Source: Candidatus Aenigmatarchaeota archaeon (GTDB lineage Archaea; Aenigmatarchaeota; Aenigmatarchaeia; CG10238-14; SCSR01). From it: a stretch of DNA of 47,108 nucleotides. The notes beneath the pieces were generated by a model that saw only the letters and a list, made by a program, of their open reading frames with translations, did no database searches and was not told the DNA's origin. This document shows positions 7,179-14,366 of the stretch, piece by piece; positions within the stretch are counted from its first letter, which is position 1, and each line of letters starts with the position of its first letter. The position numbers were made by a program, and so were the translations under genes. The DNA lies in NCBI GenBank assembly GCA_016198705.1, contig JACQIA010000017.1, positions 1 through 47,108 on the forward strand, given 5' to 3'.

Positions 7179-8609
7179 TTATTTTGGTAATTTATCAAGA
7201 GTAAGAATGTTCTTCCAGGTCTTGCCTCCGTCGGTAGATTGCCATACATTCCCATAGTCTCCGCTCATGTATACTGTGTTGGGGTCTTTTGGATCCCAGA
7301 CGAAATTGCCTATTTTGACTTTATAGCTAGAGACTTCCGGTGGGCTGCTTATCGACTGCCATGTCTTCCCCGCGTCTTTGCTCTCTACAACCCAGCCCTG
7401 CCATGGAGAATAACCGAACAAGTGATTTCCATCATTATCATGAGGATCATAACGTCCGATCCAAATGTAAATGGGAGTTTGTTCGAATGTCTTGCCACCG
7501 TCGGTCGAGTAGAAACTTTTCTGTTCAGTTTTTTCTGGCGGGAATTCGGGGCCGAACAAAAATGGCCTTGCAATCATGTGATTGAAATTGTTCTGTGAAA
7601 CATCGCCGTCAAACAACGCCCTGTACGGATCAGGCAGGGTGTCGCCCAGCTTACTCCACGTCTTGCCACCGTCGAAGGATTCCAAGATTGCGTGCTGTTT
7701 GTGCAGGAAAACTTCTGTGATGTAGTTCTCTCCGTAGATGTGGTCGTGGGATTGTGTGAAAAATATTATATGATTGGAATCTTTAGGATCTATTGCGATT
7801 ACCATAGCTTGCAGTGAAGGAAGCATCGGCATGTCCATCTCTTCCCACGTATCTCCTCCATCTGTAGTTTTATACACACTGCCTTTTTTGTTCAGACTTT
7901 CTTTTATCGGCGCTTCCTTGAAAGTTGGCGTGTCTGGGTTGACAGGATAATACATTATTTTTGGGTTTTTTTGATCGACTGCAAAAGAACCACTACCAGC
8001 AACATTTATTTTGCCTTTAATCGTCTGCATCCATGATTCCCCTCCGTCAAGGCTCTCCCAAATGCCGCCCGTCTCTCCATACGGCCAATCCACGTAGGCG
8101 GTTGTGATGTCTGAAGTTATCAACAGCAGCCTTTGCGTGTTAGCAGGATCTATGTATATCTCGGAAATGTCCGGGAAGCACAATTGACTTTTATCGTTCA
8201 TGTCAGGGTATGCGACCAGGCCTTTGGTGATTTTTTTCCATGTCAAGCCTTTGTCTACTGACTTGTATACACCTCTTCCTTCAATCCCAATATAAAATGT
8301 ATTTGAATTTTTTGAATCGATAGAAAAGCTGCTTCGTGTGCCATATGTGTTTTCATGGGTGCAATCAATTCCATACTCATGCAGCCTTTTAGACTGTTCC
8401 TCGAATTTTGGATCCCGGCTTGCTTTTTGCTGCTCTGGTTCTTTTTTTTCTTCAATATTAGATTGCTCGTGAGGTTGTGTGGACGGGATTTCTGGTTCTT
8501 TTGCTAGAGGCTTTTGCTCAATTTTAACTGACTGCAAAGATAATGCAACAGTCCCGACTATTACAACTATGATTACAGCAATTATTGCCGTGTATATGCC
8601 TTTTGACAT
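7179..8609 (-). CDS. Exported Asp-box (BNR) beta-propeller protein
   Basis: Seven Asp boxes (SVDKGLTW, SLDGGESW, TTDGGDTW, SFDGGKTW, STDGGKTF, SKDAGKTW, STDGGKTW); start reassigned to MSKGIYTAIIAV at 8609. Confidence 0.85.
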   Translation of the reverse strand: MSKGIYTAIIAVIIVVIVGTVALSLQSVKIEQKPLAKEPEIPSTQPHEQSNIEEKKEPEQQKASRDPKFEEQSKRLHEYGIDCTHENTYGTRSSFSIDSKNSNTFYIGIEGRGVYKSVDKGLTWKKITKGLVAYPDMNDKSQLCFPDISEIYIDPANTQRLLLITSDITTAYVDWPYGETGGIWESLDGGESWMQTIKGKINVAGSGSFAVDQKNPKIMYYPVNPDTPTFKEAPIKESLNKKGSVYKTTDGGDTWEEMDMPMLPSLQAMVIAIDPKDSNHIIFFTQSHDHIYGENYITEVFLHKQHAILESFDGGKTWSKLGDTLPDPYRALFDGDVSQNNFNHMIARPFLFGPEFPPEKTEQKSFYSTDGGKTFEQTPIYIWIGRYDPHDNDGNHLFGYSPWQGWVVESKDAGKTWQSISSPPEVSSYKVKIGNFVWDPKDPNTVYMSGDYGNVWQSTDGGKTWKNILTLDKLPK

Positions 8610-8693
8610 TAAATAGAAATCAAGATTTTGGAAGGCATAAATGAAGTACTCATTAAAAATACTTATAAAAAAGAACTTATTATTGTGTATTAA

Positions 8694-9518
8694 ATGGTTT
8701 CTCCGATTTTGGCAGTAATTACTGTTGTATTCGTTGGTATTGCTTTGTTTGTCTCTCAACAGTCATTAGAAATTATTGTTGAAACGCCTGCGAGCGTCGA
8801 AACTGTAAAAACTGAAGTTCCAAAAGAAGAACCTAAAGCTGTAGAAGCGCCAAAGGAACCTAAGACGACCACGCCTACAATTGAAACCAAACCAGCACCA
8901 CCTCCGCCACTACCATCACCAGAATATCCAGATGGTTTTGAAGGCACACTTACCAACATAACAAAATACTCAACAAAGATAACAGGATCCGGTACTATAA
9001 CACAAAACAATGAAATAATACAAACAGGTAATGCTAACAATGAGGTGATTTGGAACATCTTATACACCACTCAGAAGATAGATTTTACTAAAGACTTCAC
9101 AATCGAGGTTGACGTTGATTTGACTGGATCTGTATCACATGGTGATGCGATGGCGATCATCGGAGTAGAGGATGTGGAGTTAGTCATGGCTGGTAAAAAG
9201 CCGAATGCTGGGTATTGCGAACTTAGCACAGGTGGCCATGGAAATATCATAAGGATGGAAAGTTCTGGCATGCAACAAACCACTGTATCAACAACCAAGG
9301 GGAAGATTAAGCTTGCCTTCGAAGCGGCAAATTCAAAACTTAGTTGTAGCTTTGACGGGCAAACGGTAAGTGAAACGCAAGTGCCTAAGAGTGGGCAATT
9401 TACTGCTGCTTTAAGATCCGGACTTCATGAAATAATACCTGCTTATGGGCATGAAACTGAAAATCCTACTAGCGGGAGTCTTACTGTAAAATACGATAAC
9501 TTGAATATTGCAAAATAA
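8694..9518 (+). CDS. Exported lectin-like (ConA/jelly-roll-like) protein
   Basis: MVSPILAVITVVFVGIALFV N-terminus, Pro/Glu-rich linker, beta-rich domain with FTIEVDVDLTG...IKLAFEAANSKLSCSFDGQTV. Confidence 0.5.
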   Translation: MVSPILAVITVVFVGIALFVSQQSLEIIVETPASVETVKTEVPKEEPKAVEAPKEPKTTTPTIETKPAPPPPLPSPEYPDGFEGTLTNITKYSTKITGSGTITQNNEIIQTGNANNEVIWNILYTTQKIDFTKDFTIEVDVDLTGSVSHGDAMAIIGVEDVELVMAGKKPNAGYCELSTGGHGNIIRMESSGMQQTTVSTTKGKIKLAFEAANSKLSCSFDGQTVSETQVPKSGQFTAALRSGLHEIIPAYGHETENPTSGSLTVKYDNLNIAK

Positions 9519-9684: not shown

Positions 9685-10830
9685 TTATTCATAGCACAAT
9701 TTCCAAGTCGGATGATCCTTATGGATAAGGCGTAAGATGGAAGTTTTGGCATCCTCGGTAAAATACGGCTCAGGGCAAGAACGTTCTTTGCCAAGGTGAA
9801 TAACGCCCAAGTCAACATGGGCACCATTGCCACCATAGACCAGTTGTCCAATAATGTCGCCTTGTTTAACGTGCCTGCCATTTTCGACCCAGATACTGGC
9901 CTTTTGCCTATCGCCATCAGCTTGGTCTGAAGAAAAAGTTTCGAAATTATAGCAAATAAGATACGGGCTGTGATCAATGCATAATCCTGTGTGCCAGCCT
10001 TGTTGTTCGTTTTCTTTGGAAGTTTTTAAGTTTGTAATTGTGCCGTCAGTTACAGCTTGAAAATACACTAAATCTGATGATGTCATAAAATCAATTCCCA
10101 AATGTTTAAAGCCCCATGGACTGTTTTCCGTGTTGCTAAAAGCTTCGTTGATGGAGCTGATGTCTGTCTCGTTGAGGTACGGCGTGATGATGCTCAAGTT
10201 TGAATAGGTTTCTGGACTTACTGGCAAATTTTGACCGTATGAAGACTCATTACGAATCAAGCTTCCGCGGGAAGTATATCCGTGGTAGGAATTATTAAGC
10301 CCATAAATTTGGTACGCAAAAAACCCTAGGAACAAAATATTTATGGCTGTTAATATCAAAATCGCATTCCGTCTGCCTTTTGTGCCCCACTTGCGATCTA
10401 CGGTTCGATAAATGAAATACGGGATTACTATAAAAAAGCCGACGCCGATAAATGTCCCAATGATATTTTGTGTATCACCCGGGTCGGGCAGAAACCATTT
10501 GAAAACTAGCCAAATGGTTGATGCACCGATCCAGACGATTGGCCAGCTTAATGAACGGAACATAATCCAGCTTATAAAACCAAACAGCAGATAGAATAGC
10601 GGGCGGTGGAGAGCATCGCTCAAGCTCATGTCTAATATCGAGACTTTGTCGGGACCGTCTCCGCCAGTGCCAGGACCAATCAAATAGAGTGGTAGAGCTA
10701 GAAGCTGTTCACCTAGAAGGAAGAACGTTAAGACGAAAAACAAGATAAAACTCGCGGGAAGCTTGCGATCCCCTCTCCAGTCTCCATATTTTTTGGAAAA
10801 ATCCACCTTTAACAACCTCAATTCTCGCAA
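9685..10830 (-). CDS. Multi-TM protein with C-terminal M23-like domain
   Basis: Hydrophobic N-terminal half; GFKHLGIDFMTSSDLVYFQAVTDGTITNL...VENGRHVKQGDIIGQLVYGGNGAHVDLGVIHLG. TTG start, true start uncertain. Confidence 0.7.
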   Translation of the reverse strand: MRELRLLKVDFSKKYGDWRGDRKLPASFILFFVLTFFLLGEQLLALPLYLIGPGTGGDGPDKVSILDMSLSDALHRPLFYLLFGFISWIMFRSLSWPIVWIGASTIWLVFKWFLPDPGDTQNIIGTFIGVGFFIVIPYFIYRTVDRKWGTKGRRNAILILTAINILFLGFFAYQIYGLNNSYHGYTSRGSLIRNESSYGQNLPVSPETYSNLSIITPYLNETDISSINEAFSNTENSPWGFKHLGIDFMTSSDLVYFQAVTDGTITNLKTSKENEQQGWHTGLCIDHSPYLICYNFETFSSDQADGDRQKASIWVENGRHVKQGDIIGQLVYGGNGAHVDLGVIHLGKERSCPEPYFTEDAKTSILRLIHKDHPTWKLCYE

Positions 10831-11753
10831 GAACCCGTTATATAAAATGTCACATGCTCATTAATACATGCGAAACACGAATTGGAATAAGTTTTCCCGT
10901 CACTACCGCAAACTGGCTGATAAAGCTGTATGCAGGCGGCTGCATTCCTGGATTCCAATGTACAAAAATGTTTAGTTTCACCCTTTCCTTCTGATTCAGT
11001 TTTTTCTCTAATTTTTATTTTTAATTCTTCTTTAGCCTTCTTGTTAGATTCTATGGCCGCGTTTAAAACACGCTCGATTTCTTCTTTGAGTTTTGGATGC
11101 TTATCCCCCAAGTTTTCCAAAATAGAAATATGTTTAGAGGTATCTTCAGTGACCTCTTCTAGTAAAGTTGTTATTTCTTTTCCTTTATTTCTTGCTTTGT
11201 TAATTTCCCTATCAGCATTTTCCAGCTCTTTGCTATATTCTTTTATAATTTCTTTTGCAGTTTCGCTATCGTTTCTGTCTGCAACTATCTTTGCCTCTTT
11301 TAGTCTTTCTTCTGCAATTTGCAAATGCAAACTTGCTTTCTCTGGTTCGCTACTTAAAGTTAATCTTGCAGTCTCAGCAAATCTTTTCAATTCATATAGT
11401 GGATTGCCAGGAACTGCATTAGAGGAAGCAACAAAACTTCCAATAAACACCAAAAATGACAATGAAAGAACGATTGCCCATTTGTAATAGGAACTTGGGT
11501 GCAAAATTCTATCAGCATTCTTTGACAACCTGTAATAAACCCACTTATGCCCCGGTCTTTCCAATCTCTCAACTAAACCTGAATCTGACAATACGTCTAA
11601 ATGTTCAGAAACTGTGGTAACATGTTTACTTAGAGCTCTAGATAATTCTGACGCTGTCATTTGCCTTTGTTCCAACAATTTTAGGATCTCGGCCCTAGTA
11701 TCTACAGCCATCGTTTTTAGCAAATTTCTTGATATTTTCATTTCGTCGTCCAT
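10818..11753 (-). CDS. Membrane-tethered ArsR-type regulator with DUF5667-like region and C-terminal Kazal domain
   Basis: HTH TRAEILKLLEQRQMTASELSRALSKHVTTVSEHLDVLSDSGLVERL; one TM; VPGNPLYELKRFAETARLTL; ACIQLYQPVCGSDGKTYSNSCFACINEHVTFYITGSC. Confidence 0.85.
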   Translation of the reverse strand: MDDEMKISRNLLKTMAVDTRAEILKLLEQRQMTASELSRALSKHVTTVSEHLDVLSDSGLVERLERPGHKWVYYRLSKNADRILHPSSYYKWAIVLSLSFLVFIGSFVASSNAVPGNPLYELKRFAETARLTLSSEPEKASLHLQIAEERLKEAKIVADRNDSETAKEIIKEYSKELENADREINKARNKGKEITTLLEEVTEDTSKHISILENLGDKHPKLKEEIERVLNAAIESNKKAKEELKIKIREKTESEGKGETKHFCTLESRNAAACIQLYQPVCGSDGKTYSNSCFACINEHVTFYITGSCEN

Positions 11754-11797
11754 AATACATCCATAACTTATATATAAAAATTACTTTTCCATTATTT

Positions 11798-11811
11798 AGG
11801 GTCTGTACCCT
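11798..11811. promoter_or_regulatory. Inverted repeat in divergent promoter region
   Basis: AGGGT-CTGT-ACCCT. Confidence 0.35.
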
Positions 11812-11836
11812 GCATCTTCTACATGTAATAAAAGCC

Positions 11837-12874
11837 GTGTTTGATAATAGAATTCTGGTGATAAAAACGCAATTTAACATAATAGCTGCGATACTAGTAG
11901 CTGTAGTTTCCAGCATGGCCTTTACGCCGGCAGGCTTAGCTAAAAGTGAAGTTGGTGTAATTGGATTTGTGGAAAATAAAATAGTCGCAAGTGGTAAAGT
12001 AATTACCGCAGGTGTTACGCCAGACTCTATACTCTGGCTTTTGGATGTAGCGATAGATAGGCTTGATCTCTTACTCACATCAGATGCAACCGCGAAGGCT
12101 CACAAGTCTTTGGACATTGCACGTGAAAGGCTTCTGGAGGTAAGAGAGATGGCCATACAAAATAAGTTAGATGCTTCGGCAAAAGCGGAAGCTGAGCACA
12201 GAATAATGCTAAGAGTAGCTGAAGAATCCTCAGCTAAAATGCATACAAATAATGACAAGACTAAAGCACTCTCGGAAATAGAGAGTGAGTTAGAGAAACA
12301 CGAAGGGGAAATAACGGGTGTGAAGAATAATATGCACGTGAAAGTCAAAACTGAAGGGAATTTTACAGAAGAACATCAATGGGCTGTTGAAAACTTCATG
12401 CAAAAAATGCTGAACTCTACCGGAGAAGTGAAGCTGAAAATATACATTCAGATCAAGGGAGAGCTTACTTCAGAACAGAAGGCAGTTATAGATAATCTAG
12501 CGAAACAATTCAAAGGGGACGAGGAAGTTAAATTCAGGATAAAGGTAAATGTCATAGCAGACAAAATTGCAGTGGATGCTGAAGATGAACTAGAGTCATT
12601 GCTAGGAGTGCGAATAGGCAAGAAGGAAGCAGCATCCGATAGACTAGAAGAGGCGAAAGAAGCATTCAACGAACTTAAGGCAAGAATTACTGCATTGAAT
12701 GAAAGTAATATTACCATAAAAGCCTCTGATAAAGTCCTATTTGAAGAAAGCCGAAAACATTTGCTGAAAGCTGAAACTGCATTCACAGAAAGGAACTATG
12801 GAGAAGCCTATGGCCAAGCAACTGCGGCCCTAAAACTTGCAGGAAATGCAAAAGCTGAAATTGAGGAGGATTAG
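11837..12874 (+). CDS. Secreted DUF5667-like coiled protein
   Basis: Signal peptide; VTPDSILWLLDVAIDRLDLLLTSDATAKAHKSLDIARERLLEVREMA; divergent from regulator. Confidence 0.6.
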   Translation: MFDNRILVIKTQFNIIAAILVAVVSSMAFTPAGLAKSEVGVIGFVENKIVASGKVITAGVTPDSILWLLDVAIDRLDLLLTSDATAKAHKSLDIARERLLEVREMAIQNKLDASAKAEAEHRIMLRVAEESSAKMHTNNDKTKALSEIESELEKHEGEITGVKNNMHVKVKTEGNFTEEHQWAVENFMQKMLNSTGEVKLKIYIQIKGELTSEQKAVIDNLAKQFKGDEEVKFRIKVNVIADKIAVDAEDELESLLGVRIGKKEAASDRLEEAKEAFNELKARITALNESNITIKASDKVLFEESRKHLLKAETAFTERNYGEAYGQATAALKLAGNAKAEIEED

Positions 12875-13082: not shown

Positions 13083-14366
13083 TCATCTGTTATAGATGGT
13101 TGGTTTAACAAATGCGAAACTGCCGGAACAACTGCCATCCTGATGCTCGATCTTCAATTCAGTTGCGCTTGTGAGTTGGATTATTATTCTCCCTGACATG
13201 GAACTGCCCTCATAACAATAGATATTGCCATCAAGAATTACTTGAGTAAACTCGCGATTAACCAATCCTAATGATTGTGGTGTGAACTCCAGCTTCCCTG
13301 CACTTGTAAAAACTCCTCCGACTGATATTACCAATTTTGCCGGATCTTTGTTGTCCTGGACTAATGCCAGATATTTGTCCCAGTCAGTACCCATGTCAGC
13401 GCGTGAGGTGCCGTAAAACCAATTTCCCTTCAAAGTGCCCGAAACATCCTGTGCTGTTGTTCCGCATTTGCCGTCTTTTCTTGAAAGCAGATTGTAGAAT
13501 TTTCCCCTGTTCGCATCATCATAATAATCGTAAGCGCAATGTATGAAAAATGATCTTGCACCGTAGCGGTCTGGGTTTGCGAATTTGAGAGGCTTGCTTA
13601 AATCAATAAGGCCGAAGTCGAAATTTCCCTGCAATCTTCCGACACGCCCTATGTTGTCTCCAGCTTTTATTGGAGTGAATGTTTGTATATTGCACCTTTT
13701 TGATTTGTCCTCGCCTTGGAACATGCAATTTGTATCTGACACTATTTTTTCCAGCTCTGGAGAGATTTCCTTCACATGATTGTAATATCCTATCACATCT
13801 TTGCACAATGCAAAATACAATGTGTAATCCACAGGATCTTGCGTAATGCCGTGGTCAAATGATATGAGCAGTAGTTGAACGTCCGCGGGTGCATACAGTG
13901 AAATAGTGTCAGTTGTAGTGCCGCCTGGTGTTATATGGAGATATGTGTGTTCGGTGGGGAATGTGTGGCCAGGAGGGGCGAGGTTGCCTAAAGGTGTTAT
14001 TTCCGTGATTTTTCCTAAATCCACTGGGTCGACTGAAAATACTTTGCCCGTACATTCAGAAAGTTGCAACTTTTCTTTGTCTGACGGAAGTTCTGGATTT
14101 TGTCTGAAAGAACTGACAGGCTGCACTTGCCCGCCATGACCGAATTCCTCTGGTTGTTCTGTTGGATTCTGCTCTTGAGACGGTGCCTGTTTATCTTCGC
14201 CAGATTTAGGAACTTCTTTTGGCGTAATCACTGTAGTGGTTGTCTCAGTTTTTTGTTCGCTCTCAGGTTGGATGCCAGATTTAAATTGTGGCGATAAAGA
14301 CAAGGCTACAACTGCCAGTGCAACTATAACAATAGCAATTAGAGATGTTGATATGCCCTTCTCCAT
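13083..14366 (-). CDS. Exported degenerate M23/LytM-like protein
   Basis: MEKGIS + TM, linker, IQTFTPIKAGDNIGRVGRLQGNFDFGLIDL; CxYDYx and DVxGxLxGxWFxGxSxxDM motifs shared with 6009-7145. Confidence 0.6.
   Translation of the reverse strand: MEKGISTSLIAIVIVALAVVALSLSPQFKSGIQPESEQKTETTTTVITPKEVPKSGEDKQAPSQEQNPTEQPEEFGHGGQVQPVSSFRQNPELPSDKEKLQLSECTGKVFSVDPVDLGKITEITPLGNLAPPGHTFPTEHTYLHITPGGTTTDTISLYAPADVQLLLISFDHGITQDPVDYTLYFALCKDVIGYYNHVKEISPELEKIVSDTNCMFQGEDKSKRCNIQTFTPIKAGDNIGRVGRLQGNFDFGLIDLSKPLKFANPDRYGARSFFIHCAYDYYDDANRGKFYNLLSRKDGKCGTTAQDVSGTLKGNWFYGTSRADMGTDWDKYLALVQDNKDPAKLVISVGGVFTSAGKLEFTPQSLGLVNREFTQVILDGNIYCYEGSSMSGRIIIQLTSATELKIEHQDGSCSGSFAFVKPTIYNR

Follow-up and report, generated by a model that had tools for sequence, protein, structure and literature searches.

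A candidate membrane-tethered ArsR-type regulator carrying a Kazal domain, with a predicted palindromic operator, in an Aenigmatarchaeota genome

The window, the whole stretch of DNA analysed here, comprises 47,108 nucleotides from an Aenigmatarchaeota genome of 1.08 Mb available as a draft assembly in 102 contigs. The gene of interest occupies positions 10818 to 11753 on the minus strand and is complete, encoding a protein of 311 amino acids from an ATG start with no internal stop. Four elements, HTH_5, a transmembrane (TM) segment, DUF5667 and Kazal, are confirmed to lie within this single ORF. The ArsR-type winged helix (11568 to 11699, minus strand; residues 19–62, with the recognition helix KHVTTVSEHLD) matched Pfam HTH_5 with an E-value of 4.4e-13 and 49.3 bits against a cut-off of 22. 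Comparison with PDB chains using phmmer yielded the archaeal ArsR homologue PH1932 (E = 1e-7), and a Foldseek search with the AlphaFold model placed the predicted fold near PH1932, CzrA, SmtB and HlyU; with its HTH_5 match and ArsR-type fold the protein falls within the ArsR/SmtB winged helix-turn-helix superfamily. Hydropathy analysis gave one strong hydrophobic segment at about residues 91–112 (11418 to 11483, minus strand), and the TM segment is likewise placed in relatives. The positive-inside bias of the charges around it is weak. The helical DUF5667 domain follows at residues 113–220 (11094 to 11417, minus strand), matched by Pfam with an E-value of 2.3e-18 and 66.9 bits against a cut-off of 27. 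In the AlphaFold model the HTH is good and DUF5667 is helical, with a pLDDT of about 84–93.

The Kazal domain forms the C-terminus (residues 264–309; 10827 to 10964, minus strand). Pfam Kazal_1 matched residues 267–298 with an E-value of 3.6e-9 and 36.9 bits (cut-off 21) and Kazal_2 scored 25.5 bits (cut-off 22.8), while phmmer searches of PDB chains returned ovomucoid (E = 7e-10) and leech tryptase inhibitor (E = 2e-6), with agrin Kazals also among the matches. The protein has exactly six cysteines, at positions 264, 274, 282, 293, 296 and 309 (spacings 9-7-10-2-12), all of them within this domain. Alignment of the reactive loop, C274-I-Q-L-Y-Q-P-V-C282, with an ovomucoid sequence, the core of which agrees with the ovomucoid PDB chain matched, makes Gln276 the P1 residue. 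Both P1 Gln and P2 Ile are non-classical; the loop framework (P2' Tyr, Pro-Val-Cys and the Asn of TYSN) is as in inhibitory ovomucoid. For the Kazal domain the pLDDT stayed below 50 when the full protein was modelled and was 60 when the domain was modelled by itself, with alignments that contained no Kazal relatives. AlphaFold thus gives no confident Kazal fold and the identity of the domain rests on sequence. It is 64% identical to the Kazal domain of a secreted protein from another family of the same class. The frame is continuous across the DUF5667-Kazal junction, for which no ortholog is present. A second Kazal-like match, at C7:15770-15877 of the source genome, is interrupted by stops and coincides in part with an open frame in another register of the same strand; it was taken as chance.

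The earlier note on this DNA had described one uninterrupted ORF with an ArsR-like HTH, a single TM segment, a DUF5667-like region and a C-terminal Kazal motif. That layout is borne out, each Pfam domain lying above its cut-off and the hydrophobic segment being the only strong one; the Kazal assignment also stands on its Pfam match and six cysteines, though the loop quoted there as C-x5-PVC was misread and its register is C-x7-C.

On the opposite strand a divergent gene (11858 to 12874, plus strand) encodes a second DUF5667 protein, which is predicted to be secreted as it begins with a hydrophobic, signal-like segment. The ORF listing starts this gene at GTG 11837; GTG 11858 is proposed here as it better suits a symmetric spacing around the operator described below. 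These were the only two DUF5667 genes found in the genome. A recent duplication of the pair is unsupported, since BLASTP detected no similarity between the two proteins (E = 0.6). Downstream of the regulator gene, and probably co-transcribed with it, lies a gene (9685 to 10830, minus strand; 13-bp overlap) whose multi-TM product ends in a weakly M23-like domain. By eye, the products of both this gene and that at 13083 to 14366 (minus strand) look like degenerate M23-type domains, with a weak Pfam match for the first only (E = 0.03, below cut-off). The region from 7179 to 9518 encodes two exported-looking proteins, one with BNR/sortilin-type repeats (minus strand) and one that weakly matches L-type lectin (plus strand), and resembles a surface-protein gene cluster. 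No protease gene is adjacent to the regulator.

The distribution of the protein was assessed among 156 Aenigmatarchaeota genomes, all of one class. The whole-protein query matched in 92 of these at E ≤ 1e-10, with most matches covering about residues 1–110, that is the HTH and first TM segment. The protein is a member of a family of membrane-tethered ArsR-type regulators spread across the phylum. In most relatives a second TM segment lies near the C-terminus, and the relative in G008 consists of the HTH and TM with a short tail. The arrangement HTH-TM-DUF5667 recurs in three relatives (G003, G004 and G025) at 38–47% identity, all of which lack the Kazal domain; being conserved, it is not an artificial join. 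No further HTH-Kazal fusion was found in the 156 genomes. Kazal domains occur in 27 of them, within secreted or membrane proteins, and no HTH was seen in any other Kazal frame read, so that within this set the Kazal tip is specific to the source lineage. When the protein alone served as query, a search of named genomes gave no close relative; an alignment query gave eight, seven of them in Candidatus Aenigmatarchaeota. Plasmids and phages gave no match.

Neighbouring genes at the family loci commonly encode predicted exported or membrane proteins. With partner genes called by a simple ORF picker, 28 of the 42 immediate neighbours, either divergent or downstream, had an N-terminal hydrophobic segment; in six sampled regions the background among ORFs was 20% (p = 7e-11). 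Exported or membrane partners were found at 28 of 32 loci. Three near relatives, G003, G004 and G008, likewise have a divergent gene 113–114 bp away whose product looks secreted.

An 18-bp palindrome, TTAGGGT-N4-ACCCTAA, emerged when the intergenic sequences of the closest relatives were compared. The predicted operator in the window, TTAGGGTCTGTACCCTGC (11796 to 11813), has two mismatches to this consensus, both in one arm, and sits midway between the regulator gene and the divergent secreted-DUF5667 gene, its centre lying 51 bp upstream of the regulator ATG; the distance to the start proposed for the divergent gene is 53 bp. Just downstream of the operator, inspection by eye suggests a TATA box for the regulator gene (11768 to 11779, minus strand). 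Of 44 loci compared across the family, 11 have a palindrome with at least 5 of 7 paired arm positions whose centre lies at -51 relative to the start codon (mean 0.8 and maximum 4 after shuffling). This position was chosen after the data had been seen, from a position-by-position look at palindrome pairing. Half-sites near -45 were present at 20 of the 44 (shuffled 0.8, maximum 4). Searching the family loci for palindromes with no fixed position gave a weak signal. In G025 a degenerate operator is kept and the divergent gene, 367 bp away, encodes a tRNA synthetase. Elsewhere (L098:4001-4340), a family HTH gene is broken after the HTH, and an operator-like sequence, TTAGGGCAAATACCCTAT, lies between it and the next gene.

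The type of half-site follows the recognition helix. All 13 proteins with an HVTT helix and a recognisable site have the half-site CCCTAA, and all 11 with other helices and a recognisable site have CC[GTA]AA. This covariation is perfect (13/0 against 0/11, p = 4e-7), although this and the other operator p-values are optimistic because related loci are non-independent and the data themselves guided the choice of position. Such covariation is the signature expected if the HTH binds the palindrome directly. The motif was not enriched across the source genome, with 30 matches at up to three mismatches compared with 61 for a control, and any regulon is therefore only local; the sole other site with two mismatches (C48:1729) falls within an open frame. 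As the operator evidence implies contact with DNA, the HTH would be cytoplasmic and DUF5667-Kazal outside, the topology that the earlier note had proposed and with which the confinement of every cysteine to the outer domain agrees.

Taken together, these data indicate that the regulator is probably a membrane-tethered protein that uses the operator at 11796 to 11813 to control its own gene and its divergent neighbour. It would act as a single-pass, one-component transcription regulator, reaching promoters from the membrane, as the conserved operator predicts. The cytoplasmic ArsR-type winged helix would bind the palindrome as a dimer, and the bound protein would control transcription of both its own gene and the secreted-DUF5667 gene; we infer both the dimerisation and the control in two directions. 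Points that weigh against this reading are the two mismatches in one arm of the operator, the lack of motif enrichment across the genome, the weak positive-inside bias and the tRNA synthetase gene at the G025 locus. The outer DUF5667 domain may serve as a signal-receiving stalk that reads the state of the outside. This core function of the family is independent of the Kazal domain, since the closest orthologs lack it.

The Kazal domain itself would be a late-added ligand-binding tip, occupancy of which may change dimerisation or stability and hence DNA binding. The most likely ligand would be a subtilisin-like serine protease, of the own cell or another; taken on its own, this step is speculative, if plausible, and the low-confidence fold, the non-classical P1 and P2 residues and the lack of an adjacent protease gene tell against it. 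The link to proteases is based on three subtilases in the source genome, each beginning with a hydrophobic segment, on a subtilase of G054 (L030:112-2478) in which the propeptide-bearing protease is fused to two DUF5667 domains, and on DUF5667-Kazal genes near membrane HTH genes. The last arrangement is conserved in G023 and G027 (L116:1258-2906 and L117:2117-3762), where a gene for a signal peptide-DUF5667-Kazal-cytochrome b5 protein is followed by a gene for a small membrane protein and then by a TM-HTH gene, whose product has two apparent TM segments and a DUF7343/MarR-type HTH. G032 has an HTH-TM gene that shares 4 bp with the gene of a membrane protein carrying a Kazal insert and a weak DUF2330 match. 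A frameshift splits this Kazal-insert gene (L067:1093-2540) into two ORFs in the assembly, and a homologue of the protein at L098 has no such insert. The source genome also encodes two DsbA-like thioredoxins and, by eye, a DsbD/CcdA-like membrane protein whose gene is convergent with a subtilase gene (C17, L114:1246-2109). Neither Trypsin_2 nor VKOR gave a match in this genome at E ≤ 0.001. The literature searched yielded no mention of DUF5667. The complete proposal, that the Kazal inhibitor domain acts as bait by which the regulator senses outside subtilisin-type serine proteases and adjusts its own expression and that of the secreted DUF5667 protein, is put forward as a tentative possibility. 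The earlier note had suggested proteases of a host or neighbour cell as the signal; the three subtilases of the cell itself are candidate partners.

Two other roles for the Kazal domain are to be weighed against sensing of proteases. It may instead be a shield that protects the exposed DUF5667 stalk, and with it the regulator, from own or foreign subtilases, the signal being read by DUF5667 or the TM segment. The orthologs of the regulator that lack the domain, the three subtilases of the cell itself and the many other secreted Aenigmatarchaeota proteins that carry Kazal domains with no HTH would all be compatible with such a role, and a study of TcpH and TcpP offers a precedent in which the stability of a membrane regulator can be set from outside (PMC11323476). 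A shield leaves unexplained, however, the DUF5667-Kazal genes near membrane HTH genes in G023 and G027, and it is considered rather unlikely. Alternatively, the domain may be a disulfide-knotted adhesive or structural module for a non-protease ligand, either a surface protein or a glycan, as in agrin. The non-classical P2-P1 pair Ile-Gln, the agrin Kazals among the sequence matches and the presence of archaeal Kazal domains in large cysteine-rich secreted proteins and in the DUF2330-like membrane protein point in this direction, but the loop framework is kept as in inhibitory ovomucoid, and adhesion is regarded as rather unlikely.

A neutral or recent accidental fusion, giving a tail with no regulatory role, would fit an occurrence in 1 of 156 genomes and the lack of an HTH in every other Kazal frame read. 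It is improbable given that the six cysteines and core motif are all intact and that the domain so resembles the Kazal of a secreted protein from another family of the class. That an assembly or sequencing error at the DUF5667-Kazal joint has fused two genes is very improbable, for although the sequence comes from a single draft assembly and the fusion from no second genome, the frame is continuous, the HTH-TM-DUF5667 block is conserved as a whole and the overlap of 13 bp with the following gene is normal.

If, as in the protease-sensing proposal, the Kazal domain is the input, protease activity would be read without the regulator being cut, and the system would bear on the contacts of these ultra-small archaea with host or neighbour cells. 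Independently, the operator and its covariation with the recognition helix give a membrane-tethered family from an uncultivated phylum a DNA target that can be tested directly, for which purified HTH domains and short DNA suffice.

CadC and ToxR have a cytoplasmic winged helix-turn-helix, a single TM segment and a C-terminal outer sensor domain. The regulator shares this layout, with an ArsR-type winged helix in place of their OmpR-type and an unrelated outer domain. With the ArsR/SmtB metalloregulators CzrA and SmtB it has in common the HTH fold and a dimer-type palindrome but differs in being anchored in the membrane; it scores 53.9 bits against the 55 of NCBIfam HTH_metalloreg, by which cut-off it is no metalloregulator, and has no cysteine outside residues 264–309. 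Its Kazal domain has the six-cysteine framework and PVCGSDGKTY-N-C motif of ovomucoid and leech tryptase inhibitor and is a putative serine protease inhibitor, with P1 Gln276 assigned by alignment; in contrast to those inhibitors, it is joined to a membrane regulator and has Gln at P1. Transmembrane transcription regulators (TTRs), in which DNA-binding and TM regions share one polypeptide, are a described class, with the single-pass form the commonest (PMC10269533). With a predicted DNA-binding domain and at least one TM segment in one protein, the regulator is a TTR by definition; the passages of that source consulted mention no Kazal outer part, and the present analysis contributes an operator shared across the family and exported neighbours. 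ArnR and ArnR1 of Sulfolobus acidocaldarius are membrane-bound one-component HTH regulators of surface-structure genes (PMC6396743). Compared by architecture, ArnR consists of an HTH, a HAMP/sensor region and two C-terminal TM segments (PMC6396743), whereas the regulator runs from HTH through TM to an outer DUF5667-Kazal; it has one TM segment, and HAMP is not among the Pfam families listed for it. The earlier note knew of no described system with this architecture, which was too broad as regards membrane-tethered one-component regulators, already described as a class (PMC10269533) and for ArnR/ArnR1 (PMC6396743), and is upheld for the Kazal tip, no Kazal domain inside a transcription regulator having been found in the literature searched. 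By analogy, the logic of the regulator may best be read as ArnR/CadC-like. The novelty lies in the Kazal tip; the operator shared across the family is likewise new, as a computational finding.
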